Origin: Streptococcus mitis B6
GTDB taxonomy: Bacteria; Bacillota; Bacilli; Lactobacillales; Streptococcaceae
DNA length: 64,000 bases
Assembly: GCF_000027165.1 (NCBI RefSeq)
Contig: NC_013853.1
Span: 806,001 to 870,000 of the forward strand
Direction: 5' to 3'
Shown here: in pieces, positions 27,064 to 51,722 of the stretch
Numbering within the stretch: the stretch's first letter is position 1
Layout: the number at the start of each line of letters is the position of its first letter
Made by a program: the position numbers and the translations under genes
Notes under the pieces: model-generated
What the model was told of the DNA's origin: nothing
Database searches by the model: none
The model's input: only the letters and a program-made list of their open reading frames with translations

Positions 27064-27120
27064 AAAGAAAGTTAGAGCGTGTGTTTTTATTTGAACACGA
27101 GTGGAAAACTGTTCTAAACA
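27064..27120 (+). ncRNA. structured RNA repeat, copy A (5' half only)
   Basis: Starts with AAGAAAGTTAGAG and continues to the paired CGTGT/ACACG hairpin and GAGTGGAAAACT. Its first 45 bases align with copy B at 27911, but the 3' half (central hairpin and CCTATTTT box) is missing. It sits just upstream of the amidotransferase gene. See copies B-E. Confidence 0.4.
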
Positions 27121-27142
27121 CTTAGAAAGGTAAACTATAGAA

Positions 27143-27853
27143 ATGAAAGTGCATTTTATACTACATGAGAGTTTTGAAATCCCAGGTGCTTATCTAACTT
27201 GGGCTCAATCAAGAGGTCATGACATTGGAATAACAAAGGTTTATAAGGAAGAAGCTTTACCCCAAACAGTTTCTGATATTGATTTTCTTATCATTATGGG
27301 AGGTCCTCAATCTCCTGATGAAGATAAAGAACATTTCCCTTATTATCATCCAAAAGAAGAAATTAGACTTATTCGACAAGCAATAGAAGAAGATAAATAT
27401 ATTGTAGGTGTATGCTTGGGGGCGCAACTACTATCTGTAGCTTATGGGGGACAATATGAGCACAGTCCCGAAAGAGAAATAGGTGTATTCCCTATTAGGA
27501 TGACTAGTCAAGGACTAGCAGATAAACACCTCAAACATTTTGGTAGCGAGCTTTTAGTTGGTCACTGGCATGGTGATATGCCGGGCTTGACAGACGAAGC
27601 GGTAATCCTTGCTACCAGTCAAGGTTGTCCACGACAGATCGTTCGCTTTAGCCCTAAACATTATGCTTTTCAAGTGCATTTAGAGTTTGATTTAGAAGCG
27701 ATTGATTTATTGGTTGCTGCGGATAGTGAAGAACGATTGATAGAACAACATCAAACATTATCTTTTGTTCAATCACCTGAAGAATTGCGTGGTAACGATT
27801 ATTCTGAAATGAATGCAAAATTGCATAATTTTTTAGATTCGCTTACAAATTAG
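27143..27853 (+). CDS. class I glutamine amidotransferase (GMP synthase-like domain)
   Basis: A 236-residue stand-alone glutaminase domain of the GATase1 family. The oxyanion strand FLIIMGGPQSP, the nucleophile elbow IVGVCLGAQLLS (Cys) and the His of YAFQVHLEFD are visible; the catalytic Glu probably lies in the same segment. The acceptor is unknown: such proteins act on gamma-glutamyl compounds or small amines. AGAAAGG is 12 nt from the ATG, a long spacing. The ATG follows a truncated structured-RNA copy. Located between purine salvage genes, which may be coincidental. Confidence 0.87.
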   Translation: MKVHFILHESFEIPGAYLTWAQSRGHDIGITKVYKEEALPQTVSDIDFLIIMGGPQSPDEDKEHFPYYHPKEEIRLIRQAIEEDKYIVGVCLGAQLLSVAYGGQYEHSPEREIGVFPIRMTSQGLADKHLKHFGSELLVGHWHGDMPGLTDEAVILATSQGCPRQIVRFSPKHYAFQVHLEFDLEAIDLLVAADSEERLIEQHQTLSFVQSPEELRGNDYSEMNAKLHNFLDSLTN

Positions 27854-27910
27854 AATTACAGACAAACTAGATAATTTAATTTGTGCTAGTTTTTACAAAA
27901 TATCAAAAAT

Positions 27911-28042
27911 AAGAAAGGTAGAGTGAAGTGTTCTGATTTGAACATAAGAGGAAAACTTGGAAAATAGATAATCTGACTGAGAAATCATGATTTCTCGTCA
28001 GATTCCTAATTTTCAGTCGTTTTCTTGTCGCTCTCTAATCTT
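27911..28042 (+). ncRNA. structured RNA repeat, copy B
   Basis: Begins AGAAAGGTAGAG; hairpin TGTTC/GAACA; outer helix GAAAAC/GTTTTC; central hairpin AATCTGAC-...-GTCAGATT around the perfect palindrome GAGAAATCATGATTTCTC; then CCTAATTTT and a closing CTCT...ATCTT that can pair with AAGGTAGAG. It is followed by copy C with no open frame between. Helix positions match C and D with different sequences. Confidence 0.6.
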
Positions 28043-28052
28043 CATAAAATAA

Positions 28053-28187
28053 AGAAAGGATGGGTTAACTGTATTCATTGAACTGAATACGGGCGGAGAA
28101 CTGTGTAAAAAAGATAAACTGTCTAGCATCTGCGATGCGTCGTCAGTTTCCTATTTTTACTTTGTTCTCTGTCGCCCTTTATATCTT
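28053..28187 (+). ncRNA. structured RNA repeat, copy C, in front of deoD
   Basis: Begins with the anti-Shine-Dalgarno complement AGAAAGGA; hairpin GTATTC/GAATAC; helices GGGCG/CGCCC and GAGAAC/GTTCTC; central hairpin AAACTG/CAGTTT capped by GCATC...GATGC; box CCTATTTTTAC; closing ATATCTT that can pair with AGGAT. The deoD ATG is 4 nt after the element and has no ribosome site of its own. The 338-bp interval 27854-28191 is fully taken up by copies B and C and short linkers. Confidence 0.65.
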
Positions 28188-28191
28188 AATT

Positions 28192-28902
28192 ATGTCTATC
28201 CATATTGCTGCTCAGCAGGGTGAAATTGCTGATAAAATTCTTCTTCCTGGGGATCCTCTTCGTGCTAAGTTTATTGCGGAGAATTTCCTTGAAGATGCTG
28301 TTTGTTTTAACGAAGTGCGTAACATGTTTGGTTACACTGGTACTTACAAGGGTCACCGTGTATCTGTCATGGGAACTGGGATGGGAATGCCATCTATTTC
28401 GATTTATGCGCGTGAGTTGATTGTTGACTACGGTGTGAAAAAATTGATTCGTGTGGGGACTGCGGGTTCTTTGAATGAAGATGTCCACGTTCGTGAATTG
28501 GTTTTGGCGCAGGCAGCGGCAACCAACTCTAACATCATCCGTAATGACTGGCCACAGTACGATTTCCCACAAATAGCTAGCTTTGATTTGTTAGATAAGG
28601 CCTACCATATCGCCAAAGAACTCGGTATGACCACCCACGTTGGGAACGTTTTGTCTTCTGATGTCTTTTATTCAAACTACTTTGAAAAGAACATCGAGCT
28701 TGGTAAATGGGGAGTCAAGGCTGTGGAAATGGAAGCAGCAGCCCTTTACTATCTGGCAGCCCAACACCATGTTGACGCGCTAGCTATCATGACAATTTCT
28801 GATAGCTTGGTTAATCCAGATGAAGACACAACTGCAGAAGAACGTCAAAACACCTTCACTGATATGATGAAGGTTGGTTTGGAAACATTGATTGCTGACT
28901 AA
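28192..28902 (+). CDS. deoD: DeoD, purine nucleoside phosphorylase (hexameric type)
   Basis: Phosphorolysis of adenosine, inosine and guanosine and their deoxy forms. 236 residues, PNP/UDP family: [51 protein letters not shown] and [12 protein letters not shown], plus the catalytic Asp in TISDSL. A frame from 28135 adds 19 residues, but MSIHIAAQ at 28192 is the family start. No Shine-Dalgarno lies within 60 nt of it; instead a folded RNA element separates it from AGAAAGGA at 28053. It complements PunA. Confidence 0.95.
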
Positions 28903-29059
28903 AGGTAGGCTATATTCAGAATGATTTCTCTTGTTCTTAAAATGATAACCACCAACAATGAATCAATCCTGAAATAGGCAAGAATAAGGAAATTGAAGGA
29001 AGCCTAATTGTGTCAAAGGACCGAGACTAGTCAGTTTAATATCTAAATCATAATCAAAT

Positions 29060-29108
29060 AAAGTTGGAAGCCAAGTTGACAAGAAGTCAAGACTTTCAAC
29101 TTTTTAAC
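29060..29108 (+). terminator. hairpin with T run upstream of the Sir2 gene
   Basis: AAAGTTG / CAACTTT outer stem with a second stem around AAGTTGAC-AAGA-GTCAAGA, ending in TTTTT, only 13 nt before the AGGAG of the next gene. It may end the deoD transcript or attenuate the Sir2 transcript. The rest of the interval 28903-29059 shows nothing I can name. Confidence 0.55.
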
Positions 29109-29131
29109 TTGAAAATTCCTAGGAGTACAAA

Positions 29132-29863
29132 ATGGATAAGATTGAACAATTACAAGGTATTATTGATCAAAGTCAGAGAATTGTCTTTTTCGGTGGTGCA
29201 GGGGTTTCTACAGAGTCTAATATTCCAGATTTTCGTAGTTCAGATGGTATATATAGTCTGAAACTAGGTCGCCATTTTACTGCCGAGCAACTGGTTTCAC
29301 GCACTATGTTTGAGCGCTATCCAGAGGATTTTTTTGATTTCTACAAAAAGTATCTGCTCTATCCTGATGCCAAGCCGAATTTAGCACATGATTATCTAGC
29401 GTCGTTGGAAAAAACAGGTAAATTAAAGGCGATTGTGACGCAAAATATCGATAGTCTCCATGAAATGGCAGGATCTCAGAAAATTTTGAAACTGCATGGT
29501 AGTGCAGATCGTAATTATTGTTTGGGCTGTCATCGCTTTTATGATTTGACTGCCTTTTTGGCACTTGAAGGTCCAGTTCCCTACTGCTTAGATTGTGGCA
29601 AGGTGGTCAAACCTGACGTAACCCTTTATGAGGAAGAGCTAGATATGGATGTATTTAGTCGCGCAGCCCAAGTCATTCAGCAAGCAGATTTGTTGATTAT
29701 TGGTGGCACTTCCTTAGTTGTTTACCCTGCAGCTAGCCTAATCAATTATTTTTCAGGGTCAAATCTTGTCGTTATCAACAAGTCCAGCACTCCTCAAGAC
29801 AGCCAAGCTGATTTAGTTATCGAAGGTAAGATTGGAGAAGTTTTTTCTAAATTGAGACAATAA
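29132..29863 (+). CDS. Sir2-family NAD-dependent protein deacylase
   Basis: A 243-residue sirtuin consuming NAD to remove acyl groups (or transfer ADP-ribose). Visible: NAD loop FFGGAGVSTESNIPDFRS, the TQNIDSLHEMAG segment, the catalytic His in KLHGSADRNY and two Cys pairs for structural zinc (CLGC and CLDC). GAGVSTES replaces the common GAGISxxSGIP, as in low-GC class U and M-type sirtuins. AGGAG is at correct spacing from the ATG. Monocistronic, with a terminator after it. The target proteins are unknown. Confidence 0.9.
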   Translation: MDKIEQLQGIIDQSQRIVFFGGAGVSTESNIPDFRSSDGIYSLKLGRHFTAEQLVSRTMFERYPEDFFDFYKKYLLYPDAKPNLAHDYLASLEKTGKLKAIVTQNIDSLHEMAGSQKILKLHGSADRNYCLGCHRFYDLTAFLALEGPVPYCLDCGKVVKPDVTLYEEELDMDVFSRAAQVIQQADLLIIGGTSLVVYPAASLINYFSGSNLVVINKSSTPQDSQADLVIEGKIGEVFSKLRQ

Positions 29864-29906
29864 AAAAACTGAAAGAAGTAGGACTATACTTCCTTCAGTT
29901 TTTTTG
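29862..29906 (+). terminator. terminator of the Sir2 gene
   Basis: AAAAAACTGAAaGAAGTA / TACTTCcTTCAGTTTTTTT, a strong stem with seven T. Confidence 0.88.
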
Positions 29907-29987
29907 TATCACGAACTCAGAAACTATGAACAAGATTCTCTTCCTTTTTTAGTCATTCACTACATACTGACCTTAATGAATGTTACT

Positions 29988-30506
29988 CTATTGTCTATTT
30001 TTTAAAGATCGCAAAAAACAATCAATCTCTGCTTGAGAATGGAGAATATGCATCTTTTCTGGATAAGTATTGTTTAAGTATTGGTATCTATCCTTAGCAT
30101 TTTTTATTCGACCATCCCTGAGAATCCATCTGATAAACTCCCAATTAAATTGTTCTTCACATCCAGCTGCCATACTTTCTCTGACCTTGCCTCGGTATGT
30201 GAGATAACGTTTAAAGGCTCGTAGCAGACAATTCCAGCGAGAAAAATTAAGAAAGATAATTTGGTCAGCTTCCTGCATTCTTTCCTCATAGAAACACCAA
30301 GAATAATTACCATCGATGACCCAAGCTTCATGCTTGGTGAGAAATTTTTTCATCTCATCCAACATCCAATCGCGATCACTATCTTGCCAACCAGGTTGAA
30401 ATTGGAGTGTGTCCATGTGAAGTTTTGGGATGGAGTAGTAGTTAGATAACTTTTCGGCTAGCGTTGACTTACCAGCACCAGAATATCCGATAATTGCGAT
30501 TTTCAT
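29988..30506 (-). CDS. P-loop kinase, adenylate kinase-like (topology modulation protein family)
   Basis: A 172-residue small P-loop NTPase of the family annotated 'DNA topology modulation protein FlaR', which are really adenylate- or shikimate-kinase-like enzymes of unknown substrate. Walker A is IGYSGAGKSTLAEKLS at the N-terminus; HMDTLQFQPGW and WVIDGNYSW follow in the substrate region, and a lid-like RWNCLLRAFKRYL is Arg-rich. It is divergent in position from Sir2 and transcribed toward it. Function is unproven. Confidence 0.82.
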   Translation of the reverse strand: MKIAIIGYSGAGKSTLAEKLSNYYSIPKLHMDTLQFQPGWQDSDRDWMLDEMKKFLTKHEAWVIDGNYSWCFYEERMQEADQIIFLNFSRWNCLLRAFKRYLTYRGKVRESMAAGCEEQFNWEFIRWILRDGRIKNAKDRYQYLNNTYPEKMHILHSQAEIDCFLRSLKNRQ

Positions 30507-30531
30507 TTTCTACCTTTTCCTATTTGGAGAC

Positions 30532-30557
30532 AAAAAAACAGCCTCTATGGACTGTTT
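30532..30557 (-). terminator. rpsT terminator
   Basis: On the minus strand AAACAGTC-CATAGA-GGCTGTTTTTTT directly behind the rpsT stop. Confidence 0.85.
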
Positions 30558-30558
30558 C

Positions 30559-30795
30559 TTATTTAGCAAGTTTAGCTGAAAGACGAGCTTTGTCGCGACT
30601 TGCTTTGTTTTTGTGAATCAAACCTTTAGTTTCTGCTTTATCGATAGCTGAGCTAGCAGCACGGAAAAGTTCTTCAGATGGGTTTGCTTCGAAAGCTTTG
30701 ATAGCAGTACGCATAGCTGATTTTTGAGCTGAGTTCTTTTCGTTTTGTTTAACGTTCAATTCAGCGCGTTTGATAGCTGATTTAATGTTTGCCAA
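30559..30795 (-). CDS. rpsT: 30S ribosomal protein S20
   Basis: S20 binds 16S rRNA early in small-subunit assembly. The 78-residue protein is helical and very Lys/Arg/Ala-rich ([20 protein letters not shown] at the start). Start choice matters: an in-frame ATG at 30810 lies within ATGGAGGT, so that ATG is part of the ribosome site, and the real start is the TTG 15 bases later (30795), giving the standard N-terminus. E. coli rpsT also uses a UUG start and is autoregulated through it; a similar control here is an inference. Confidence 0.93.
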
Positions 30796-30862
30796 TGTTC
30801 TTACCTCCATATTTACTAACTATACCATTATATCTGAAAACTTACGTTTTGACAAGGGGAAA

Positions 30863-31783
30863 TTATTTTTTTAAGTAAATTTCATCGATTTCATGGTTCT
30901 TTGTTTTATGAAGAATCACTTCTGCACGATTTCTGGTTGGTTCAATATAATTTTGTAGATTTGTGAGATTGATACTGGTCCAGACCTGATGGGCAAAGGA
31001 TTCCACTTCCCCAATCGGCATTTGAGTAAAGTGATAGTAATAGCTATCAGGGTCATTTTGGGCTAGACTCAGCATCTTCAAGAAACGGTCCAGATACCAA
31101 CTCTCGATGTCATCGACTGCAGCATCAACATAGATGGAAAAGTCAAAGAAGTCAGTAATGTAGAGACGCTCGTTTTGTGGATTTTGAAAGACATTTATTC
31201 CCTCAACAATGACAAAATCAGCAGCTTTAACGCTTTGCTTTTCCTCAGGAACAATATCGTAGACTTCATGAGAATAGACAGGAATATCTACATCTTGTCC
31301 ATTTTTGATGTGGTCCAAGAAGTTGAGAAGAGCTTCCATATCATAGCTTTCAGGAAATCCCTTACGATTTAGAATCCCTTGCTCAATCAAGGTCTGGTTG
31401 GGATAGAGAAAGCCGTCAGTTGTTACCAACTCAACCGTAGCATCTGTAAGTGTACGGGACAGTAGGATTTGAAGTAGGCGACTGGTTGTGGATTTTCCAA
31501 CGGCAACACTCCCGGAAACACCAATGATGAAAGGCTGGGATTTGCTTTCACGTTGAAGGAAAATCCCTTTTGAAAAGGCCAAATCATCCTTGGTACGCTT
31601 GTAAATCTGGATGAGATGAGCTAGGGGGAGATAGACATCGGTAACATCCTGCAAGCTAATCTGGTCATTAAAACTCTTGATGGATTCTAATTCCTCTTCT
31701 GTCAACGGAGGTGTTGTCTTTCGATGTAAAGATTGCCAAGTCTGGCGACTGATTTTTTCAAAATGTAAAAATTCGTTGGTCAT
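30863..31783 (-). CDS. coaA: CoaA, type I pantothenate kinase
   Basis: Phosphorylates pantothenate, the first committed step of coenzyme A synthesis. 306 residues. The N-terminal region ([16 protein letters not shown]) precedes the P-loop [35 protein letters not shown], and [11 protein letters not shown] are family motifs. The start at 31783 is taken because AGGGGAAA is just upstream, and the frame above it (to 31897) lies in the promoter region. It lies upstream of rpsT on the same strand and may share its transcript. Confidence 0.95.
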
Positions 31784-31845
31784 GTGTTTTCCCCTAGATA
31801 TTTTGTTTATCATACCATAAAAAGATAAAAAAATAAAGCGGTTTC

Positions 31846-31874
31846 TTGATGATAGTAAGCCAATATCGTATAAT
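31846..31874 (+). promoter_or_regulatory. promoter of the small membrane protein gene
   Basis: TTGATG (31846-31851), 17-bp spacer, TATAAT (31869-31874). The transcript would have a leader of about 100 nt. Confidence 0.6.
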
Positions 31875-31880
31875 AGAGGT

Positions 31881-31983
31881 AGATAGAGGTTGAACAATTT
31901 ATTGATGAAGTAGGAGCTACCTTCTCCTGATTTATAAGCTTATAAAGGGCGCTTTTCGGTTCACAACTTATAGGAGGTGTGTC
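31881..31983 (+). promoter_or_regulatory. structured 5' leader, possible translational switch
   Basis: Contains GTTGAAC ... GTTCACAAC as outer pairing, AGGAG...CTCCT hairpin, the 16-nt palindrome TTTATAAGCTTATAAA (31931-31946), and CTTATA at 31967-31972 right before GGAGG, which could pair with TATAAG of the palindrome. The ribosome site could thus be hidden or free. It does not match any riboswitch consensus I know. Confidence 0.4.
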
Positions 31984-32388
31984 ATGAAAATCTTAAAAAG
32001 TTATTTATTGGAACTCTGTTTTATTTTAAGTTTTGCACTACCTTTTTTAAAAGGAGCGAATGCGGATAATGGTAGACGTTTTGTGGAAACCTATTACGGT
32101 TTTACTTTTTTGATGGAACATGCCATTGTAACAGCTGTCTTTATCTGTTCGCTCTTGATTGCTTTCTTCCTAAAAAAACGGTGGACGAAATGGCTTGCTG
32201 CTGGTAGTTATTTCTTTTTAGTTCTATGGCTTGCTACAGAGGGTTATTTCTTCCGCATGTCACTAGAAGATTTGATACGACTTTGGACAAGTTTGGAATT
32301 CCTGACAAAAACGTATCAGTTGGGCTTTTATCTAAACATCTTGTTGGGAACTCTCTTGATAATAAAGTATTTGAAGGTTAAGCAATAG
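31984..32388 (+). CDS. small four-helix membrane protein, unknown function
   Basis: A 134-residue integral membrane protein. Four hydrophobic segments can be seen at residues about 5-23, 42-64, 70-90 and 112-130; loops are short and basic (KKRWTKW on the inside). GGAGGT precedes the ATG at good spacing. I do not recognise the family. It has its own promoter with a structured leader, and lies just before the acquired mercury genes, so it marks the left edge of the core chromosome there. Confidence 0.7.
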   Translation: MKILKSYLLELCFILSFALPFLKGANADNGRRFVETYYGFTFLMEHAIVTAVFICSLLIAFFLKKRWTKWLAAGSYFFLVLWLATEGYFFRMSLEDLIRLWTSLEFLTKTYQLGFYLNILLGTLLIIKYLKVKQ

Positions 32389-32640
32389 TCATAAAAATGC
32401 GCTTGATTATAGACAATAAATTTGTTGTTTTATCTTGACTGTGATATTTCTAGTTCTAAATGGCTTATTATTTATGGGTCTTCGGAATATATAGTGGAAT
32501 TACTTTCTTAATAGTTTAAAAACAACTGGTGTTTAAATCGGATTTTCTGGTGGGATGTTAGGATAATCAATAGTATTATATAAAAGTATCAATCACATAC
32601 GAGTGATACTTTGGGAAAAAAATAAAATAGTCCAATTTAC
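32389..32640. other. noncoding A/T-rich interval left of the mer genes
   Basis: Within about 300 bp without a gene, only one structure is evident: AAAGTATCA / TGATACTTT (32583-32612), a stem without a T run. No insertion-sequence end or direct repeat that would mark the insertion point of the mer module was found. Confidence 0.5.
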
Positions 32641-32672
32641 TTGACCGTGTACTATGGTACATGGTTTATAAT
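32641..32672 (+). promoter_or_regulatory. mer operator/promoter
   Basis: TTGACC (32641-32646) and TATAAT (32667-32672) are separated by 20 bp, longer than optimal, with a dyad ACCGTGTAC ... GTACATGGT filling the spacer. This is the classic MerR-type arrangement in which Hg-loaded MerR untwists DNA to activate transcription. Confidence 0.9.
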
Positions 32673-32691
32673 ATTCAGGGGGTGAAATAAG

Positions 32692-33084
32692 ATGATTTAT
32701 CGCATTAGTGAGTTTGCAGATAAATGTGGAGTTAATAAAGAAACGATCAGATATTACGAGCGAAAAAATTTATTACAAGAACCTCACCGAACGGAAGCTG
32801 GTTATCGGATATATTCATATGATGACGTTAAGCGTGTTGGGTTTATTAAACGAATACAGGAACTTGGTTTCTCTTTAAGCGAGATTTATAAATTACTTGG
32901 TGTTGTAGATAAAGATGAAGTTCGTTGTCAAGATATGTTCGAATGTGTTTCTAAAAAACAAAAGGAAGTGCAAAAACAAATAGAGGATTTAAAACGAATT
33001 GAAACTATGTTAGACGACTTAAAACAACGATGTCCAGATGAAAAGAAATTACATTCGTGTCCAATAATAGAAACATTAATATGA
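32692..33084 (+). CDS. merR: MerR, mercury-responsive transcriptional regulator
   Basis: A 130-residue MerR-family activator/repressor. The winged helix-turn-helix is residues about 1-70 ([24 protein letters not shown]). A long dimerisation helix follows. The three cysteines Cys79, Cys114 and Cys123 fall at the exact Hg(II)-binding positions of Bacillus-type MerR. GGGGGTG precedes the ATG. It is the first gene of its own operon with merA, as in Gram-positive mer operons. No merT, merP, merB or other transport genes are present. Confidence 0.96.
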
Positions 33085-33112
33085 GAGATTAATTAACGAA
33101 AGGAGCTTTTTT

Positions 33113-34753
33113 ATGAATAAATTTAAGGTAAACATTTCAGGAATGACTTGTACGGGTTGTGAAAAACACGTAGAATCAGCACTTGAAAAGATAGGTGCTA
33201 AAAATATTGAGTCTAGTTATCGTCGTGGTGAAGCAGTATTTGAACTGCCCGATGATATTGAGGTTGAAAGTGCAATAAAGGCGATTGATGAAGCAAATTA
33301 CCAAGCCGGAGAAATTGAAGAAGTATCATCACTAGAAAACGTGGCGTTAATTAATGAAGACAATTATGACCTTCTTATTATTGGTTCTGGCGCTGCTGCC
33401 TTTTCTTCGGCAATTAAAGCTATAGAATACGGTGCAAAAGTTGGAATGATTGAGCGTGGAACGGTTGGGGGAACCTGTGTGAATATTGGCTGTGTTCCGT
33501 CAAAAACTCTTCTTAGGGCAGGGGAAATCAATCATTTATCAAAAGACAATCCGTTTATAGGTTTACAAACATCCGCTGGAGAAGTGGATTTAGCTAGTTT
33601 AATCACGCAAAAGGATAAATTGGTGAGCGAACTTCGGAATCAAAAATATATGGATTTAATTGATGAATATAATTTTGATTTAATTAAAGGTGAAGCAAAA
33701 TTCGTTGATGCTAGTACGGTTGAGGTCAATGGGACAAAGTTATCTGCAAAACGCTTTTTAATTGCAACAGGTGCATCGCCTTCGTTGCCCCAAATTTCAG
33801 GACTTGAAAAAATGGACTATTTAACTAGTACAACACTTCTTGAGTTAAAGAAAATACCAAAACGATTAACTGTAATTGGTTCAGGATACATTGGAATGGA
33901 GCTTGGACAACTATTTCATCATTTAGGTTCAGAAATAACGCTTATGCAAAGAAGTGAGCGACTTTTAAAGGAGTATGATCCTGAGATTTCAGAGTCAGTT
34001 GAAAAAGCGTTAATTGAACAGGGTATAAACCTTGTCAAAGGGGCAACTTTTGAGCGTGTTGAACAAAGTGGAGAGATAAAAAGGGTTTACGTAACAGTAA
34101 ATGGCAGTAGAGAAGTCATTGAATCAGATCAGTTACTTGTTGCCACTGGAAGAAAACCAAATACGGATTCTTTAAATTTAAGTGCAGCAGGTGTTGAAAC
34201 TGGAAAAAATAATGAAATCCTGATCAATGATTTTGGTCAAACAAGTAATGAAAAGATTTATGCAGCAGGAGATGTGACTTTAGGACCACAATTTGTATAT
34301 GTAGCAGCCTATGAAGGTGGAATTATTACTGATAATGCTATTGGTGGATTAAACAAAAAAATAGATTTATCGGTAGTTCCTGCTGTTACGTTTACGAATC
34401 CGACGGTTGCAACGGTTGGTTTAACAGAAGAACAAGCAAAAGAGAAAGGGTATGATGTGAAGACATCTGTATTACCTTTAGATGCTGTTCCAAGAGCAAT
34501 TGTAAACCGTGAAACAACCGGTGTATTTAAACTAGTAGCAGATGCAGAAACACTAAAAGTATTAGGGGTTCATATTGTATCTGAAAATGCAGGAGATGTC
34601 ATCTATGCAGCATCATTAGCTGTTAAATTTGGCTTAACGATAGAAGATTTAACAGAAACCCTAGCACCATATTTAACAATGGCTGAAGGGCTAAAATTAG
34701 TTGCACTTACGTTCGATAAAGATATTTCGAAATTATCTTGTTGTGCAGGCTAA
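33113..34753 (+). CDS. merA: MerA, mercury(II) reductase
   Basis: A flavoenzyme reducing Hg(II) to volatile Hg(0) with NADPH. 546 residues. A single N-terminal heavy-metal-associated domain with GMTCTGC (Cys13, Cys16) delivers Hg; then FAD-binding [10 protein letters not shown], the redox pair [13 protein letters not shown] (Cys122, Cys127), NADPH-binding [11 protein letters not shown], the second FAD motif [10 protein letters not shown] and YAAGDVTLG. The C-terminal vicinal cysteines SCCAG (543-544), which bind Hg, are intact. All needed residues are present, so detoxification of inorganic mercury is likely. 28 nt after merR. Confidence 0.97.
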
Positions 34754-34903
34754 GGGAACTTTTTTACAACTCCCTATTCAAGTGAACCAGCTAATGCTTT
34801 AAGGGATTTTCTAAGTGCATTTGTGGTCACAAAAATAATTTAACACTGATGATTTCGACATCAAATCTATAATTGATACCTTAACCCCGCAGAGTAATAA
34901 AGG
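34754..34903. other. short interval between merA and the ISL3-family transposase
   Basis: 150 bp with no recognisable terminator. It probably holds the left end of the ISL3-type element, but I could not find a convincing inverted repeat partner near 36236-36260. Confidence 0.35.
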
Positions 34904-36240: not shown

Positions 36241-36286
36241 TTTCCACCATAAAATCCGAATACCCTTATTTATAAGTGTTTAAAGA

Positions 36287-36330
36287 GATTGAAGAAAAGG
36301 TCTTCTTGACTAGCTTTCTTCAGTCTTTTT
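36287..36330 (+). terminator. terminator upstream of the methyltransferase operon
   Basis: GATTGAAGAAA / TTTCTTCAGTC (G-U tolerated) with TTTTT after it. Likely belongs to the original gene left of the mer insertion. Confidence 0.7.
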
Positions 36331-36345
36331 CGTTTCATTATCAAT

Positions 36346-36391
36346 TTGTAAACGATTTACAATTTAAGTCAAATTATGGTAAAATAGTTTC
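36346..36391 (+). promoter_or_regulatory. promoter of the pdp operon with a perfect palindromic operator; leaderless start
   Basis: TTGTAAA-CGA-TTTACAA (36346-36362) is a perfect dyad whose right arm contains the -35 TTACAA (36357-36362). After 17 bp comes TGGTAAAAT (-10 at 36380-36385), 6 nt from the ATG at 36392. The dyad resembles a CcpA cre or other LacI-type operator with one extra base in the centre. Confidence 0.65.
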
Positions 36392-38256: not shown

Positions 38257-38275
38257 ACCGCAGGAGAATCCGTAT

Positions 38276-40478: not shown

Positions 40479-40566
40479 AAGCGGCCCTCGGCCGCTTTTT
40501 TAAGAGTTGAGACAAAGTCATTTTGTCTCAGTAAAGCTTGCTACTAGATAAACTAGCAAGTTTTAT
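40479..40566 (+). terminator. three consecutive hairpins between lipoprotein and ABC genes
   Basis: AAGCGGCC-CTC-GGCCGCTTTTTT (40479-40501), TGAGACAAA/TTTGTCTCA (40508-40530) and CTTGCTA/TAGCAAG with a following TTTT (40533-40566). The first is a strong terminator; together they may cause partial termination or protect the 3' end of the lipoprotein message. Confidence 0.75.
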
Positions 40567-40599
40567 TGAAATAAAATAAGACTCTGAAAGGAAGAGCAC

Positions 40600-43186: not shown

Positions 43187-43188
43187 AG

Positions 43189-44145: not shown

Positions 44146-44151
44146 GCATAC

Positions 44152-44188
44152 AAAAAAACGTCAGTATAGAACTGGCGTTTTATTTTTT
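44152..44188. terminator. bidirectional terminator between the nucleoside transporter and plsY
   Basis: AAAACGTCAGT-ATAGA-ACTGGCGTTTT with T-rich and A-rich flanks, between convergent genes. Confidence 0.85.
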
Positions 44189-44821
44189 AGGATTTTGATG
44201 GGTTAGGTTCAATCCCCAAGGGACCAAATTTTCAGTTTTATTTTTGATGCGTGTGATATTGTCCTTATGGCGAATGATGATCAAACTAGCAAGAGCTAGG
44301 ATAATAGCGATGAAGAGAGGGTCATAGTGATTCAGGATAAAACTAAAAAGTGGAAAGAGTAGAACTCCGATGACGGCTGCGATAGATGCTGTGACACTAG
44401 ATAGTGAAATCATACTACCAAGATAGAGGGTTCCAAAGAAAACAACTGCAAGGTAGAGACAGAAAACAGGCGCAAATCCGAAAATCACTCCAGCACTGGT
44501 AGCGACAGCCTTGCCACCCTTAAATCCTGCAAAGATAGGGAAGGTATGACCAATAACAGCCAAAAGTCCAAAGATAAGAGGTGAAACACCTTGCAGATGA
44601 AAAATAATCGGAAGAAGCGTTGCTAGGGTTCCTTTGAAAAAATCAATTACAAAGGTCGCCATACCTGCTTTTTTGCCTAAAATGCGAAAGGTATTGGTCG
44701 TTCCAGTGTTACCAGAACCATGCTCGCGTAGATTGATTTGAAAGAATACTTGTCCAATCCAGAGACCAGACGGAATCGAACCCAGCAGATAGGCTAGGAT
44801 TAATAAAACTATTGTAATCAT
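44180..44821 (-). CDS. plsY: PlsY, acyl-phosphate glycerol-3-phosphate acyltransferase
   Basis: Integral membrane enzyme making lysophosphatidic acid, the first phospholipid-specific step. 213 residues with about five helices. Three conserved loops are visible: [28 protein letters not shown] (glycerol-phosphate binding), and [11 protein letters not shown] (acyl-phosphate). A -10 box (TATAAT on the minus strand, 44828-44833) lies 6 nt before the ATG with AGGAGT filling the gap, so the apparent ribosome site may not be transcribed. Confidence 0.94.
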
Positions 44822-44833
44822 ACTCCTATTATA
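44822..44833 (-). promoter_or_regulatory. plsY -10 box, 6 nt from the start codon
   Basis: GATATAAT-AGGAGT-ATG on the minus strand; the message should begin at or within two bases of the ATG. Confidence 0.55.
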
Positions 44834-44898
44834 TCATGAATTGGGAAAGAAAGGCAGAGAATCTCTTCTGAAATTGTCACACCGGAGAAAGAAAAATT

Positions 44899-44927
44899 TT
44901 GCAAAATCCTTGGAAAACTTGTAGAAT
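44899..44927 (+). promoter_or_regulatory. parE promoter
   Basis: TTGCAA (44899-44904), 17-bp spacer, TAGAAT (44922-44927), 30 nt before the GTG start. Confidence 0.65.
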
Positions 44928-44956
44928 AGTAAAGATGAACGAATAGGAGGTTCCTT

Positions 44957-46906
44957 GTGTCAAAAAAGGAAATCAATATTAACAATTATAATGATGATGC
45001 CATTCAGGTGCTAGAAGGGTTGGATGCGGTCCGTAAACGTCCAGGGATGTATATCGGATCGACCGATGGTGCTGGTCTCCACCACCTAGTCTGGGAAATC
45101 GTCGATAATGCTGTCGATGAGGCCTTGTCTGGATTTGGTGACCGTATTGATGTGACCATTAATAAAGACGGCAGTTTAACAGTTAAAGACCATGGTCGTG
45201 GGATGCCGACAGGTATGCACGCTATGGGTATTCCAACCGTTGAGGTTATCTTTACCATTCTTCACGCCGGAGGGAAATTCGGTCAGGGGGGCTACAAGAC
45301 ATCTGGTGGTCTCCACGGGGTTGGTTCTTCCGTTGTTAACGCTCTTTCAAGTTGGCTGGAAGTTGAAATTACCCGTGATGGCGCAGTTTACAAGCAACGT
45401 TTTGAAAATGGTGGAAAACCTGTCACGACTTTAAAGAAAATCGGTACAGCGCCCAAGTCTAAAACAGGTACCAAAGTCACCTTCATGCCTGATGCGACCA
45501 TCTTTTCTACGACAGACTTCAAGTACAATACCATTTCAGAACGCCTCAATGAGTCAGCCTTTCTCTTGAAAAATGTGACCTTGTCCTTGACGGACAAGCG
45601 AACAGATGAAGCGATTGAGTTTCATTATGAAAACGGAGTTCAGGACTTTGTTTCTTACCTCAACGAAGACAAGGAAATCTTGACACCAGTTCTCTACTTT
45701 GAGGGGGAAGATAATGGTTTCCAAGTGGAAGTTGCTCTCCAGTACAATGATGGATTTTCAGATAACATTCTGTCCTTTGTCAATAATGTTCGTACCAAGG
45801 ACGGTGGAACGCATGAGACAGGACTCAAGTCTGCCATTACCAAGGTTATGAATGACTATGCACGTAAGACGGGGCTTCTCAAGGAAAAAGATAAAAACCT
45901 TGAAGGGTCAGATTACCGTGAAGGGTTAGCAGCGGTTCTTTCTATCTTGGTTCCTGAAGAACACCTCCAGTTTGAAGGTCAGACCAAGGACAAATTAGGC
46001 AGTCCACTAGCTCGTCCCGTTGTGGATGGAATTGTGGCGGATAAGTTGACCTTCTTCCTTATGGAAAATGGGGAATTGGCTTCTAACCTCATCCGCAAGG
46101 CTATCAAGGCGCGTGATGCTCGTGAAGCAGCACGTAAGGCGCGTGATGAGAGCCGAAATGGCAAGAAAAACAAGAAAGACAAGGGCTTGTTGTCGGGTAA
46201 ATTGACACCTGCTCAGTCTAAGAATCCTGCTAAGAATGAACTCTATCTAGTCGAGGGAGACTCTGCCGGTGGTTCTGCTAAGCAAGGTCGTGACCGCAAG
46301 TTCCAGGCTATCTTGCCTCTTCGTGGTAAGGTTATCAATACAGCCAAGGCCAAGATGGCGGATATCCTCAAAAATGAGGAAATCAATACCATGATTTATA
46401 CCATTGGTGCGGGTGTGGGTGCAGACTTCTCCCTTGAAGATGCTAACTATGATAAGATCATTATCATGACCGATGCGGATACTGATGGTGCTCATATCCA
46501 GACCTTGCTTTTGACATTTTTCTACCGCTACATGCGTCCGCTAGTTGAGGCAGGCCATGTCTACATCGCCCTTCCACCTCTTTACAAGATGTCTAAAGGA
46601 AAAGGAAAGAAAGAAGAAGTGGCCTATGCTTGGACGGACGGAGAATTAGAAGAACTCCGCAAGCAGTTTGGTAAAGGAGCTACCCTCCAACGCTACAAGG
46701 GACTTGGTGAGATGAATGCGGACCAGCTCTGGGAAACAACTATGAACCCAGAAACGCGTACCCTTATCCGTGTCACAATCGAAGACCTAGCCCGCGCCGA
46801 ACGTCGCGTCAATGTCCTCATGGGAGACAAGGTTGAACCACGACGTAAGTGGATTGAAGACAATGTCAAGTTTACGTTGGAAGAGAGTGGGGAGCTTATA
46901 TTTTGA
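44957..46906 (+). CDS. parE: ParE, topoisomerase IV subunit B
   Basis: ATPase/TOPRIM subunit of the chromosome-decatenating topoisomerase IV (649 residues). [73 protein letters not shown] and the metal motif MTDADTDGAHI identify ParE rather than GyrB. The start is GTG after AGGAGG. It normally pairs with parC, but here the two genes are about 4.8 kb apart. The DUF262 gene begins 28 nt after its stop and probably shares the transcript. Confidence 0.97.
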   Translation: MSKKEININNYNDDAIQVLEGLDAVRKRPGMYIGSTDGAGLHHLVWEIVDNAVDEALSGFGDRIDVTINKDGSLTVKDHGRGMPTGMHAMGIPTVEVIFTILHAGGKFGQGGYKTSGGLHGVGSSVVNALSSWLEVEITRDGAVYKQRFENGGKPVTTLKKIGTAPKSKTGTKVTFMPDATIFSTTDFKYNTISERLNESAFLLKNVTLSLTDKRTDEAIEFHYENGVQDFVSYLNEDKEILTPVLYFEGEDNGFQVEVALQYNDGFSDNILSFVNNVRTKDGGTHETGLKSAITKVMNDYARKTGLLKEKDKNLEGSDYREGLAAVLSILVPEEHLQFEGQTKDKLGSPLARPVVDGIVADKLTFFLMENGELASNLIRKAIKARDAREAARKARDESRNGKKNKKDKGLLSGKLTPAQSKNPAKNELYLVEGDSAGGSAKQGRDRKFQAILPLRGKVINTAKAKMADILKNEEINTMIYTIGAGVGADFSLEDANYDKIIIMTDADTDGAHIQTLLLTFFYRYMRPLVEAGHVYIALPPLYKMSKGKGKKEEVAYAWTDGELEELRKQFGKGATLQRYKGLGEMNADQLWETTMNPETRTLIRVTIEDLARAERRVNVLMGDKVEPRRKWIEDNVKFTLEESGELIF

Positions 46907-46934
46907 AAGAAATATAGAAAAAGGAGAAAAATGA

Positions 46935-48151
46935 ATGAAAAATAAAGTTTATTATGGCGAATATTCCCTGGAGCATTGGATTAAGTTAATTTTAAAGAAG
47001 AATATTGTATTACCTGATTATCAGCGTTATTATGTTTGGAATCAAGAAAAAGTAAGAACATTAATTGAGAGTTTTAACAAGCACGAATTTGTTCCTCCGG
47101 TTACTATTGGAGCTTTCATGGATGGTGAGGAACAGAAAAATTTGATTTTAGATGGTCAACAACGTTTAACGTCGATATTCCTTGCTTACTTAAGTATATT
47201 TCCAAATAAGGAGTGTGAAGATTGGGCACCGAAGAGTTTTATTCCTTTAGCTGACACTAATGATGATTCTGAAAATGATGATGAATTTTATAAAGGTTTA
47301 GATTGGAATTTTAATAAGCTCATATCAATTGGAAATACAAAAAAAGTTATAAAACAGGAAGTGAAAATTCCAGAACAATATCTTGAAATGGATATAGAAA
47401 TCAGTGAAGATTTTTTTAAAAACAATTTTTTAGGTTTCTCTTTCTTAGTGCCAAGTTATGATGGCGAGAAAAATGAGAGCGATGGGGAAAAAACTGATAA
47501 TTTTAAAAAAATCAAATTAAATTTTATTCTTCTGTTTTTAGGCATATCAATATACAAGGAGAAGGCTTATCAAATTTAGAGAGTAGACGTTCACTTTACT
47601 TTTTAAATAAAGACTTGGAACATTTTTTTGACCCTAAATATTTTAAAAGTGTAAAAATAAAAGATAAAAAACTTGATTTTGTACGCTACTTGGCTCTTTT
47701 AGATGCCTATGAAGAAAATGAACAAAATGAATATAAAGTTGCAGTTGGTAAAAAGAGGCAAGATAAGTTAGAACAATTCTTTGTTGATTATGTATATAAA
47801 ATCGTTGGTGATGGAAATTTCATAGTTTCACAAAAACTTTCAGTACTTGAAAAAAATTTAGACTTTTTAAAAGATTTAAATGTAGCTTTTTTTACTAAAA
47901 ATTTTCAATCAATTATTGATGCGGATGTTTACTTATTCGGGTGGATATATTTTTCAATATTTCAGCAAAAGGAAATTAATTCAAAAAAATGTACTGATGT
48001 AAATTTTGAATCACTTCAAAAAGAACTTGATTTGGCAATCAAAGACTTTAAAACAGATAAAGAACATCAAAAGAGTCCGAGTGCTTTAAAATATCTAAGA
48101 AATCGGTTGAAAACTTCAATTAACTTGTATAAGGAGTATTTTAGTGAGTAA
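46935..48151 (+). pseudogene. DUF262-domain protein, split by a frameshift at a poly-A run
   Basis: A GmrSD/SspE-like DUF262 protein. The N-terminal part (46935-47579) has the family hallmarks LPDYQRYYVWNQEKVRTLIESF and LILDGQQRLTSIFLAYL (the DGQQR nucleotide-binding/hydrolysis motif). At seven A (47505-47511) the frame is lost: an eighth A would read on as KFYSSVFRHINIQGEGLSNLESRRSLYFLN, the usual DUF262 middle, into the C-terminal frame ending at 48151. So one base is missing, or the run varies in length or slips. Ribosome site AAAGGAG, 28 nt behind parE. Coding is very A/T-rich compared with parE and parC, suggesting transfer. If the two halves can still be joined, it would be a nuclease or NTPase module. 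Confidence 0.85.
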
Positions 48152-48989
48152 GCATACAGATTTTATTTTAACTCCTATAACTACTATTTTGGAAGAAGCA
48201 GTTGCTGCAACTTCTAGTATTGGTGATGGAATTGAAACCTACCCTTTGTGTGATTATATTTTACAAGCTGTATTTCTGAAAATGACAGGTTTTCAAGAGC
48301 AAAAGATGAAATGTATTGCTTGGGAATTGGGAACAAATGATTTCGAGTTTCGATATTGGTGGTTAAAAGAAACTAAGTTAGGAACCTATTCATCATATGA
48401 CCAGAAAAATAGTATTTATAAAGAATTTTGTCAGGCACTTAAGAGAATAAATATAGATTTTGGTATAAATGAAATTAATAAACAGATTTTATTAGAGAAT
48501 ACTACTCAAAAGATTAATGAAATATTTAAAGATTCAAACCTAATTTCTTGGGTTCGTGCCGATTTTTCTTATTTTGTATCAGATGATTGGACTGATACTG
48601 ATCAATTTTTGAAAGATGAAAAAAATATGTTTGTGTCAATGCCAAACGAAAATAATAGACCTAAGAAGCCAGATAGAAAAGAAGGAGATAGTGAGCAAGG
48701 ATATGAAGATAAACTTAAGGACTATAATAGGAAATATACTAGTTACATTAAAAATAAAAAGCATAATTTAAAATGTAAGTATGAGAATGTTTTTAATCAA
48801 CGTAATCGATTGGCACATAATACTTTATCTTATCAGCAAAACTTACCGACATTAACTAAATTAGTTAATGAAACTCAAGAATCTAGAAATTATTTTATTT
48901 GGTTTGGACTGTTAACTTTAATTGATAATATTTTTATGGAATTGTATCGACTATATCAAGACGGATTGGAAGATAAGCTTGATTATTAA
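48144..48989 (+). CDS. HEPN-motif protein (MAE_28990-like), partner of the DUF262 gene
   Basis: A 281-residue protein of unknown function. Near residues 219-226 it has QRNRLAHN, fitting the HEPN ribonuclease motif R-x4-H (Arg220, His225) preceded by Asn/Gln; the C-terminal helices end at residue 281. The N-terminal PLCDYILQAVFLKMTGFQEQKMKCIAWEL is the kind of helical start seen in HEPN proteins annotated MAE_28990/MAE_18760-like, which frequently neighbour DUF262 genes. It starts with GTG inside the upstream gene (8-nt overlap), after AAGGAG, so it is translationally coupled. A role in RNA cleavage in phage defence is inference. Confidence 0.6.
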   Translation: MSKHTDFILTPITTILEEAVAATSSIGDGIETYPLCDYILQAVFLKMTGFQEQKMKCIAWELGTNDFEFRYWWLKETKLGTYSSYDQKNSIYKEFCQALKRINIDFGINEINKQILLENTTQKINEIFKDSNLISWVRADFSYFVSDDWTDTDQFLKDEKNMFVSMPNENNRPKKPDRKEGDSEQGYEDKLKDYNRKYTSYIKNKKHNLKCKYENVFNQRNRLAHNTLSYQQNLPTLTKLVNETQESRNYFIWFGLLTLIDNIFMELYRLYQDGLEDKLDY

Positions 48990-48991
48990 AA

Positions 48992-49108
48992 GAATAACTC
49001 ATCCCACACGAATAATCGTCTTTCCCAGTTTTAAAACAAGAAATCACACCTGAAGAATATCTTGTCTGGGGGAATAACTCAAAACACACATGTGTGTTTT
49101 GAGTTATT
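48992..49108 (+). repeat. 36-bp perfect palindrome and related repeat behind the HEPN gene
   Basis: At 49073-49108 AATAACTCAAAACACACA is followed at once by its exact complement, with no spacer. GAATAACTCA also occurs at 48992-49001, 80 bp earlier, and CCCAG...CTGGG with an inner ACAAGA/TCTTGT stem lies between. No T run follows, so it is not a standard terminator. It may be a transcription stop, an operator, or the scar of a mobile element. Confidence 0.65.
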
Positions 49109-49190
49109 GGAGTAAAATACGAGTATTTAGATATGTTCTGAATTATTTTAGGTCAAAAAATTAAAAATACATCATTGAAGGAGGAGTTTT

Positions 49191-49937
49191 ATGAAAAAAG
49201 AATATGGAATCACGAGTTTAACTGTACGCAATTTAGAAAACAACGAATTCTTCTAACTTCTATCTGAGAGCAAGGACGAGTCAGGGGCTTTTACAAAAGC
49301 CAATAAATCTGAGCAGGTTTATGTAACGAAGCTTAGGGATATGGAAAAACTTCTTGAGACCTTGCAAGTTGGTTTACACCGTTCCAAGGCCAGTCAAATG
49401 GTGGCTAGTCTGGAAGCCTCTGATCGTGAGCGTGATGATGCGCTTTCTACCTTGACAGACTTGGTCAAGGCCTTCTCTCGTGTCAAAGAGGCAGGTAGCA
49501 AGGAAGCTTACGACAAACTCAGCAAACTTTTCAAAAATTATGCTTGGTTAACGAGTATAAGCTGCGAAAAGGAGACAGAAGCTATTAACCATTTACTCAA
49601 GGAGCTAAAAGATACGGACTATCAAACTGCTCTTGCAACCCTACATTTGACAACTCATATAGAAACCTTGACAAAAGCGCAGTCTTAGTTTGAAAAAGCA
49701 TATAAGGAGCGCTTGGCTGAGCAAAAAGGCAAGGCACCTAGTCAAAACAAGGAAGTCCGTGCAAAACTACAAGAAATCTATGACTTCCTTGTGGATTTTA
49801 CTGAAATCAACGCCTACGCTTATCCTGAAAGAACTCATGTGGTCAATCTCCGCGATCACCTCAACACCATCCGCAGCCGCTACAAAAAACGCAAACCTGC
49901 TATGAAGGTAACGGAAGCAGTGGGGAGTGTTAATTAA
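49191..49937 (+). pseudogene. DUF6261-like helical protein with two in-frame stops
   Basis: A frame of about 248 codons begins at ATG 49191 behind GAAGGAGGAG. It is broken by TAA at 49254-49256 and TAG at 49686-49688, without frame change; after each stop the protein continues (LLSESKDESGAFTKANK; FEKAYKERLAEQKGKAP). The product is helical and charged, resembling DUF6261 proteins of unknown function. Gln would fit both stops (FFQLLSES and AQSQFEKAYKER), i.e. CAA to TAA and CAG to TAG. An in-frame ATG at 49341 could restart synthesis of a 115-residue middle piece. Confidence 0.75.
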
Positions 49938-49963
49938 GTCTGATAGATTTGGAGGAATAGAAG

Positions 49964-50338
49964 ATGATTATCAGACCTGCAAGCAGAAAAGATTGTCAAG
50001 CTATTTATAGCCTTTATCAAAGTGAAAAATGGCTTTCTTTTACAGAGGAAAAAGTGACATCTCTATTTTCAACAAATCTGTCTCATTACTTGGTGCTTGA
50101 AGAGGACCAGAAAATTCTTGGCTTTGCCCGTTATCTGACGGATGAAGTGATGACGACCTTTTTAGCTGAAATAATTATTGATAAATCCCACCGCAGAAAA
50201 GGACTGGGACAGCAGCTGATTGAGGAGATCCACAAAAAATATCCTTTGACACGGATTGAATTAATATCTGAAGCAGATGGATTTTATCGGTCAATAAGTT
50301 TTAAGCCTGTTGGTACAGGATTTAGAAAATCTGAATGA
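49964..50338 (+). CDS. GNAT family acetyltransferase
   Basis: A compact 124-residue GNAT protein; substrate unknown. The start MIIRPASRKDCQAIYSLYQSEKWLSF, the core FLAEIIIDKSHRRKGLGQQLIEEI (acyl-CoA-binding R-R-K-G-x-G) and the end GFYRSISFKPVG are all family-like. GGAGGAATAG precedes the ATG. Its stop overlaps the remnant frame that follows. It appears intact, unlike its neighbours. Confidence 0.87.
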   Translation: MIIRPASRKDCQAIYSLYQSEKWLSFTEEKVTSLFSTNLSHYLVLEEDQKILGFARYLTDEVMTTFLAEIIIDKSHRRKGLGQQLIEEIHKKYPLTRIELISEADGFYRSISFKPVGTGFRKSE

Positions 50339-50547
50339 AAGGAGACAGCCAAGCCTGTCTAGACTTTGCTTTTCAGCAAGCTGGCTTGTCAGAAGTTTAC
50401 TCTTTTACATTCTTACTCAATCAACTTTCGCAAAAAGTCATGCAAAAACTGAGCATGGAATTTGTCAAAGAATTTGATAATGAAAAAGTTCCAGCAGACA
50501 GTCCACTTTATAGACATGTCCTCTACAGAATCAAGAGTTTCCACTAA
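50335..50547 (+). pseudogene. C-terminal remnant of a RimJ/RimL-type acetyltransferase
   Basis: A 70-codon frame that looks like the last third of a GNAT enzyme: ACLDFAFQQAGLSEVYSFTFLLN-x-SQKVMQKLSMEFV matches the end of RimJ/RimL proteins (NxxSxxVxxKLGM), but the N-terminal two thirds and the acetyl-CoA loop are missing. Its ATG lies in the stop of the previous GNAT gene (ATGA), as if a deletion joined the two. Not expected to be active. Confidence 0.7.
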
Positions 50548-50563
50548 AAAGGCAGGTATCAAC

Positions 50564-51385
50564 ATGAGAACTGAAACAGAAATGCTCGATGTAATTTTAA
50601 AGACTGCTGAAACCTTACAAGTTGCGGCTGTCGCCATGTCTGGTTCACGGACTGATACAAAAGCCTCAAAAGATGAATTTCAAGATTATGACGTAGTCTA
50701 TGTTGTAGAGAATCTGGACGAGCTGATTACAGATTTATCTTGGTTGGACCAGTTTGGCAAACGCATTATCGAGCAAGAAGTTGATCTTGGTCAACGTCGT
50801 CTATACCTCATGCTCTTTGAAGATGGAAATCGAATTGATCTAACCCTCTGTCCAAAACAACAAATTTAAGAGTGGGTAGATAGCGAAGCGGAATTCATAG
50901 TTTTAGAAGATAAGAAGGGCTTATTTGAGTACTATTCTCCCAGTCCTCAGCGTTTCTGGATGAGTTCAACTAGTGAGACAGATTTTAAAAATTCCTGCAA
51001 TGAATTTTGGTGGGTGTCGGCCTACGTGGTTAAAGGAATTTGTCGTAATCAGCTCATCTACGCGATAGACCATCTCTATGGCATTTGTCAACAAGAACTC
51101 CTAAAAGTCTTAGCTTGGCGGGTAGCAAGTGATAGGGGAGCAGTTGACATCGGTAAAAATTACAAGTACCTCTTTAACTATTTGCCTGCTGAGAAAGAGA
51201 AGGAATTCTCGAATATGCTTGATTTTTCAAGTTTAGATAAAATAACTCAGTCTTTGTTTATTACGATGAAATTTTTCCACCAAGAGGCTCAGTTTCTTGC
51301 TCAAAAAATGGGCTTTGCTTACGATAAAGAAGTGGCTGAGAAAATGATGAGATATGCTGAGGAAAGACTTCAAAACACTATGTAA
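50564..51385 (+). pseudogene. ANT(6)-like aminoglycoside adenylyltransferase, interrupted by one ochre codon
   Basis: Resembles streptococcal/AadK-type 6-adenylyltransferases. The first part has the nucleotidyltransferase motif MSGSRTDTKASKDEFQDYDVVYVV (GSR then D-x-D) and DGNRIDLTLCP; a TAA at 50867-50869 follows, then the frame continues as EWVDSEAEFIVLEDKKGLF, NEFWWVSAYVVKGI and the helical C-terminal domain. Gln would fit the stop. The family's normal length (about 280) is recovered when read through. I recall an 'ant' gene in the parE-parC gap of viridans streptococci; here it is broken, so aminoglycoside modification is unlikely. Confidence 0.82.
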
Positions 51386-51416
51386 ATAAAGAACCTAAAT
51401 TATAACTTTAAACTAC

Positions 51417-51565
51417 AGAAAGGATAGTTTGGTTACTTATCGTAACTGAATACGGGACGAATTCTTAGGAAAAGAGAGAAATCGTCTTGGGTTCATAGAA
51501 CCTTACATCGATTTCCTATTTTTCTACAGAAATTTTCGGCAAGCCAAATCGTCCCTTTGTATCTT
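51417..51565 (+). ncRNA. structured RNA repeat, copy D
   Basis: Begins AGAAAGGATA; hairpin GTTAC-TTATC-GTAAC; the string ACTGAATACGGG (identical in copy C); helix GGGACG/CGTCCC; central hairpin AAATCG/CGATTT with an inner GGTTC/GAACC; box CCTATTTTTC; closing TATCTT that can pair with AGGATA. No ATG follows; copy E comes next. Confidence 0.62.
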
Positions 51566-51605
51566 AACTGAACACCTTTTCTGTAAAAACCTACTCTACA
51601 TTCTT

Positions 51606-51720
51606 TGAAAGGAGTTGAACACGCCCTAGATACTGTGTGAAAAAGATAAATTCTCTTGTGAGCATCGCTAACTGCAAGAATTTTCTATTTTCACTTGATA
51701 TTTTACGGGCTCTGTATCCT
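51606..51720 (+). ncRNA. structured RNA repeat, copy E, in front of parC
   Basis: Begins GAAAGGAG, then TTGAACACG; helix GCCC/GGGC; GTGTGAAAAAGAT pairing with TTTTCAC; central hairpin AAATTCT/AGAATTT; box CTATTTTCAC; closing TATCCT that can pair with AGGA of the first line. The parC ATG is two bases on, with no ribosome site between. The 337-bp interval 51386-51722 is filled by D and E. Confidence 0.6.
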
Positions 51721-51722
51721 AT

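Follow-up and report, generated by a model that had tools for sequence, protein, structure and literature searches.

Folded elements before deoD and parC

We analysed 64,000 nucleotides (nt) of Streptococcus mitis B6 (NC_013853.1, positions 806,001 to 870,000; hereafter the window), in which two open reading frames (ORFs) that we take, following the initial annotation, to be deoD and parC are each preceded by a pair of short folded elements. All other gene names used here are presumed from protein starts. The elements, copies B and C before deoD and D and E before parC, had been described together with a truncated copy A as five members of one structured RNA family, and the strings given for them agree with the sequence (Table 1). 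Copies B-E match a covariance model, R1, at 63 to 106 bits. This model was built on 13 copies of the S. mitis B6 genome with B-E among them, so that their scores come by construction and the independent support lies in the further copies found. Copy A is indeed a relic: it gave no R1 match and shares 30 nt with copy B at 83% identity. An ordinary AGAAAGG follows it at 27124-27130, and the ATG of an amidotransferase gene comes next at 27143. Truncated units resembling copy A also lie 5′ of deoD in other strains. The only other match to R1 in the window, up to an E-value of 5, was copy B on the opposite strand (E 0.055). In four relatives (G002, G009, G017 and G024; G numbers denote genomes and L numbers loci) a D-type copy lies, by eye, 0-2 nt 5′ of the parC ATG, a place from which it is separated in the window by copy E.

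Table 1. Features of the element family in the window, followed by copies in rRNA operons of relatives (positions within the locus named)
Feature	Positions	Strand	Basis
Copy A, 5′-half relic (AGAAAG-type start, hairpin 1, GAACACG string)	27064..27111	+	sequence; no R1 match
AGAAAGG Shine-Dalgarno-like motif, 5′ edge of copy B	27912..27918	+	sequence
Copy B core	27938..28042	+	R1, 63.3 bits
AGAAAGGA, sole strong Shine-Dalgarno sequence for deoD; spacer to ATG 131 nt	28053..28060	+	sequence, duplex energy
Copy C core with outer helix, AGAT/CCTA internal loop in the central hairpin, and TATCTT at its close	28083..28187	+	R1, 105.5 bits
deoD (purine nucleoside phosphorylase), ATG 4 nt 3′ of copy C	28192..28902	+	ORF
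AGAAAGGA, 5′ edge of copy D	51417..51424	+	sequence
Copy D core	51446..51565	+	R1, 88.7 bits
GAAAGGA Shine-Dalgarno sequence for parC, 5′ edge of copy E	51607..51613	+	sequence
Copy E core, 3′ end TATCCT, 2 nt 5′ of parC ATG	51615..51720	+	R1, 98 bits
parC (topoisomerase IV subunit A)	51723..54194	+	ORF
rRNA-operon copy flanking 23S, L277	4421-4538	+	
rRNA-operon copy flanking 23S, L277	7591-7699	-	
rRNA-operon copy flanking 23S, L289	4600-4707	-	
rRNA-operon copy flanking 23S, L298			

Start-proximal copies separate the Shine-Dalgarno sequence from the AUG

The flanks of the elements were read in S. mitis B6 and four relatives, a set of 115 copies after removal of repeats. The five-genome listing comprised 131 copies, 17 in further, repeated rRNA operons being left out, and 127 matches were reduced to the 115 by removing 11 repeat matches to a place already covered and a weak long match (L259 2327-2523). 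Placement counts used ORFs of at least 90 codons, which hides copies at rpsN. On this basis 40 of the 115 copies end 0-8 nt 5′ of an ORF start, with an actual gap of 0-6 nt; because they include orthologous genes across genomes they are not independent, and 23 are non-redundant. Every one of these 40 start-proximal sense copies carries [AG]AAAGG within 75 nt 5′ of its core, and the duplex of this motif with the 16S tail, whose sequence was verified against two genomes, has a mean energy of -10.9 kcal/mol. The 20 nt before their start codons average -1.6 kcal/mol and reach -5 or below in 3/40 cases, compared with a mean of -6.15 kcal/mol, and -5 or below in 21 cases, for 32 other, hand-picked window ORFs that served as the control. 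The 5′ motif was found in 0/34 antisense and 9/41 remaining copies of the five genomes.

Two further genomes, picked for their high copy number and classified by slightly different rules, contributed 97 of 101 matches after removal of three duplicate matches and a partial one; from G010 and G021, part of the listed copies was fetched. The motif was present in 6/6 start-proximal sense copies, in none of 15 antisense copies adjoining a stop codon and in one of 76 remaining copies, which lies in an array before dnaJ. Many sense copies in these two genomes precede an ordinary Shine-Dalgarno sequence instead. Pooling both sets, the 5′-edge motif occurs in 46/46 start-proximal sense copies, 0/49 antisense copies and 10/117 others, while a good Shine-Dalgarno sequence near the start is missing in 43 of the 46. 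A sense element that abuts a start codon therefore splits the ribosome-binding site, with the Shine-Dalgarno sequence at its 5′ edge and the AUG beyond its 3′ end. The initial annotation had the element replacing the ribosome site of deoD and parC. This is half right: copies C and E have a Shine-Dalgarno sequence at their far 5′ edge and thus split the site rather than replace it. At the dnaJ-like gene a sense copy lies at the start in all seven genomes read (S. mitis B6, G007, G014, G022, G023, G010 and G021).

A strong Shine-Dalgarno sequence on the far side with none near the AUG is also the arrangement of the split sites in phage T4, where, according to the accessible text of PMC3014915, folded RNA reduces the Shine-Dalgarno-AUG spacing of genes 25 and 38 from 22 to 5 and from 27 to 11 nt. 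Both cases place folded RNA between the two signals; the spacings of 22 and 27 nt in T4 contrast with 107-152 nt here, and the present element occurs at many genes and is apparently mobile. This placement suggests that synthesis of proteins such as ParC, DeoD and DnaJ begins only once the ribosome has spanned a folded insert.

Ribosome-binding motifs of the STAB-SD type serve as mRNA-stabilising ribosome stands. The upstream AGAAAGG could be such a stand, with the AUG reached in another way, for example through a promoter in the element that yields a leaderless message. The closing TATCTT does loosely resemble a -10 box by eye, but this 3′ end is variable (TATCAT, TATCCT) and its distance of 0-6 nt to the AUG leaves too little room for transcription to begin before the start codon; we regard this alternative as very unlikely. 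A short leader peptide behind AGAAAGG was also considered and rejected, as judged by eye only.

Hairpins unrelated to the family were seen between a GAAAGG-type Shine-Dalgarno sequence and the AUG, within about 110 nt, at deoD (L159, L163) and parC (L197); the genomes concerned are G021 and G018 for deoD and G018 for parC. Since these hairpins occupy the same gap, split sites may extend beyond this family.

The element has a covarying fold

Members of the family are about 105-160 nt long and share a fold built from an outer helix, two stems of seven and six pairs with the conserved AGAT/CCTA internal loop between them, a further loop and a variable apical hairpin; in many sense copies a small hairpin 1 precedes the core. 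In a MAFFT alignment of 13 copies, scored against a structure derived from copy C, 80.9% of cells pair compared with 64.6% after shuffling, and both sides change in 77 cells compared with 32; none of 500 shuffles matched any of the five measures, and slid controls paired at 37-62%. An alignment-free test used the 95 of 115 copies that could be anchored, or 51 after redundancy removal, and here the inner stem was paired in 81% (59% shuffled, maximum 65%) and the outer stem in 94% (76% shuffled, maximum 81%). The helices thus covary strongly beyond chance by two routes, bearing out the initial annotation, which had described helices that are kept while their sequences change. Its further proposal, that the 5′ start pairs with the closing TATCTT or TATCCT, was not supported: the 3′ end varies among TATCTT, TATCAT and TATCCT by eye while AGAAAGG stays constant, so that a helix between AGAAAGGA and TATCTT has no compensatory change behind it.

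The family is an interspersed repeat of the genus

A search of streptococcal genomes with R1 matched 143 of 147 sampled Streptococcus genomes (E 1e-3, up to 26 candidates per genome being scored), and at E 0.1 it matched 30 of 41 genomes, S. mitis B6 included. The S. mitis B6 genome (2,146,611 bases) holds 21 copies by R1, and the highest counts were 94 in G021 and 83 in G010. Copies also occur in other families of the same order, one represented by two genera (G025, G033) and the other by a single genus (G035); those of G033 are mostly near-identical tandem arrays of about 118-122 nt per unit, one of which (L061) follows a stop codon. Blastn searches of plasmids and of phages, each with copy C as the single query, gave no match at E 1e-5.

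Copies occur in both orientations relative to transcription units, 34/115 being antisense, and 18 of these 34 end between -2 and +4 nt from a stop codon. Ribosomal-protein operons are among the locations, as are rRNA operons (Table 1). In G014, one copy sits in the spacer from a tRNA (Ala by eye) to 23S, and an antisense copy starts 3 nt past 23S; in G022 an antisense copy ends 6 nt 5′ of 23S, and in G023 three copies lie between tRNA and 23S. The sense and antisense copies bracketing 23S in G014 could pair within the processing stem. By its distribution the family is a genus-wide interspersed repeat and behaves as one. The earlier designation as a structured RNA family is accordingly retained in part: the conserved, covarying structure stands, while the label is too narrow in view of the presence of copies on both strands and in rRNA operons, the interspersed-repeat behaviour and the lack of strand dependence described below.

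Copies turn over between strains

The presence, type and number of copies vary among strains. In relatives that lack an insert, namely at prmA in G019, deoD in G010 and parC in G004, the AUG is the same and follows an ordinary Shine-Dalgarno sequence, and in G010, G022 and G016 the parC copy is reduced to a relic that keeps AGAAAGGA, the outer helix and TATCTT and has lost the core. By eye, rpsN and rpsH lie 62-66 nt apart in G005 and G004, which leaves no room for a copy; elsewhere the gap holds copies that differ in number and direction. Another structured repeat occupies the rpsN-rpsH gap at L334 and L342; it is alike by eye in G017 and G016 and starts directly past the rpsN stop.

At deoD, a copy recognised by its motif adjoins the AUG in every one of the best 80 of 463 strains found. 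The AUG-proximal type is B in 37 strains, C in 23, T3 in 13 and T4 in seven, and the four cassette types form 30 arrangements 5′ of the gene when truncated units are counted. On a quick tree made from the one 708-base gene of recombining species, the proximal type requires 34 changes, compared with a mean of 37 and a minimum of 32 after shuffling; its fit to the deoD tree is thus no closer than chance would give. The cassettes are likely swapped by recombination between AGAAAGG...TATCTT units.

These data bear on the possibility that the elements are a cis-regulatory RNA family, in which the fold would be a switch or a protein- or ribosome-binding leader that toggles translation. Strong covariation, conserved AGAT/CCTA internal loops and the position of sense copies before housekeeping genes are what such a family would present. 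We nevertheless consider it unlikely, since many copies (34/115) are antisense and others sit in rRNA spacers, the genes concerned (by presumed names deoD, parC, carA, carB, prmA, dnaJ, alaS, proS, uvrA and prfA) share no pathway, the type adjacent to deoD is interchangeable, and relics persist without the core.

Proposed bridging of the insert

We infer from the observed split that the insert is bridged. By analogy with T4 genes 25 and 38, the element is probably a mobile folded unit lodged between the Shine-Dalgarno sequence and the AUG, and its fold would bring the two within reach of one ribosome. It may have entered, or recombined into, the gap between the two signals; the fold would then place AGAAAGGA and the AUG on one 30S subunit at the same time, as the T4 genes suggest, and the element would be kept for that reason. 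Retention could thereafter be locked in, because imprecise loss of the insert would break the ribosome site. When the Shine-Dalgarno sequence and the AUG were held open, the 23 non-redundant inserts had effective spacings of 7-25 nt with a median of 14 nt. Of these inserts 22 folded much better than their shuffles, with z-scores of -3.0 to -8.1, and the remaining one had a z-score of -0.9.

Several observations weigh against bridging by a selected mRNA fold. Effective spacing was no shorter than in dinucleotide-shuffled inserts (means 14.7 and 14.6), so that it fails as proof of bridging, and the parC relic in G010 leaves 27 unpaired nt. Across the anchored copies, G-U compared with A-C pairs showed no bias by transcription strand. 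The transcribed strand had the stronger fold in 7/34 sense and 24/26 antisense non-redundant copies, which means that both groups favour the (-) strand, with no difference between them in fold-strand preference (p 0.13, or p 0.95 on z-scores). As both groups lean to the same strand, selection for an mRNA fold is not demonstrated, and with the absent wobble bias this led us to reject selection on the RNA only. In addition, none of the parC, prmA and rpsN-rpsH loci offered a clean empty site with a target duplication. Since fold strength is independent of the transcribed strand, the data are explained no worse by a palindromic REP/MITE-like element than by a regulatory RNA.

The same results would also fit a purely selfish DNA repeat, whose fold would serve single-strand recognition in transposition, the AGAAAGG motif and the AUG positions marking sites that tolerate insertion and the start being Shine-Dalgarno-independent. 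The fold and its wobble pairs do not depend on the transcribed strand, tandem arrays occur in another family of the order, and 18/34 antisense copies end at or near a stop codon. The pooled distribution of AGAAAGG, invariably present at start-proximal sense copies and never at antisense ones, would be unexpected if the motif were unused, and we hold this alternative to be rather unlikely. Bridging of a mobile insert remains the explanation that we prefer. The fuller picture, of genus-wide mobile folded elements inside ribosome-binding sites whose start-proximal sense copies split the Shine-Dalgarno sequence from the AUG, whose fold bridges more than 100 nt and whose interchangeable cassettes form variable arrays able to retune housekeeping translation, seems to us about evenly balanced.

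If bridging is true, split ribosome sites would be more than a phage curiosity: they would recur at housekeeping genes throughout a major bacterial genus, and mobile elements would create them. This would also account for genes that lack a Shine-Dalgarno sequence in ordinary annotation, supply numerous natural inserts with which to study the tolerance of the 30S subunit for structure between Shine-Dalgarno sequence and AUG, and provide an example of a repeat locking itself in place.

Relation to known repeats

The elements match no known Rfam family at the gathering threshold: a search found none over any copy. Sub-threshold matches over the other strand of copy B were FIE3 (24/40 bits) and SNORD27 (23.1/52 bits), and further weak matches over copies were SpF43_sRNA (18.1/70 bits) and Spy490380c (19/65 bits). 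REP/BIME and other transcribed palindromic repeats form orientation pairs and arrays and fold on both strands. The present family shares these traits and differs in being longer and in having its position tied to gene ends. As to a MITE, which has terminal inverted repeats and a target-site duplication, the family's ends, AAGGAT and ATCTT, show weak complementarity by eye, and no clean empty site was seen among the loci compared. EFAR, which we take to be a repeat comparable to Efa-1, is likened to the family by description only. Efa-1 of Enterococcus faecalis is an intergenic repeat of about 163 nt with two adjacent hairpins (PMC2267715); compared by description only, it resembles the family as a Lactobacillales intergenic repeat of similar size and two-hairpin fold, and differs in that the text available of that paper does not mention a split ribosome site.

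The BOX, RUP and SPRITE repeats of S. pneumoniae are, in the consulted text of PMC3049150, almost absent outside pneumococcus and S. mitis, with BOX relatives in S. suis; BOX and RUP are among the intergenic repeats listed for S. mitis B6 in the part seen of PMC2828477. Like them, the present family is short, intergenic, folded, probably parasitic and streptococcal; unlike them it is genus-wide, with 30-48% GC. RUP is described as about 107 bp with 27.5% GC, and SPRITE as an 18-bp duplex with a long U-rich tract and 28.1% GC (PMC3049150). Judged on these descriptions alone, both identities proposed for exclusion at the outset can be rejected, RUP on the near-ubiquity of the family in Streptococcus and its higher GC, SPRITE on GC and on TATCTT ends that by eye lack a U-rich tract. 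A BOX-like repeat of the S. mitis B6 genome (L011, about 1370-1490, by eye) differs from the family in sequence.

ScRE and sanguinis-hairpin are candidate structured elements of Streptococcus, both ambiguous as RNA, ScRE being probably cis-regulatory (PMC2864571, as far as its text was available). Compared by description only, either could be part of the present family; if so, the element would already have been noted, though not the split-site finding. A literature search covering few subscription papers, without supplements, found the family undescribed except possibly under these two names in the part seen of PMC2864571, and found no repeat reported to split ribosome sites. Adjoining an element 5′ of a purE-like gene, L377 1634-1725 (-) matches Rfam SSRC8_2 (Streptococcus sRNA 8) at 48.6 bits, against a threshold of 72.

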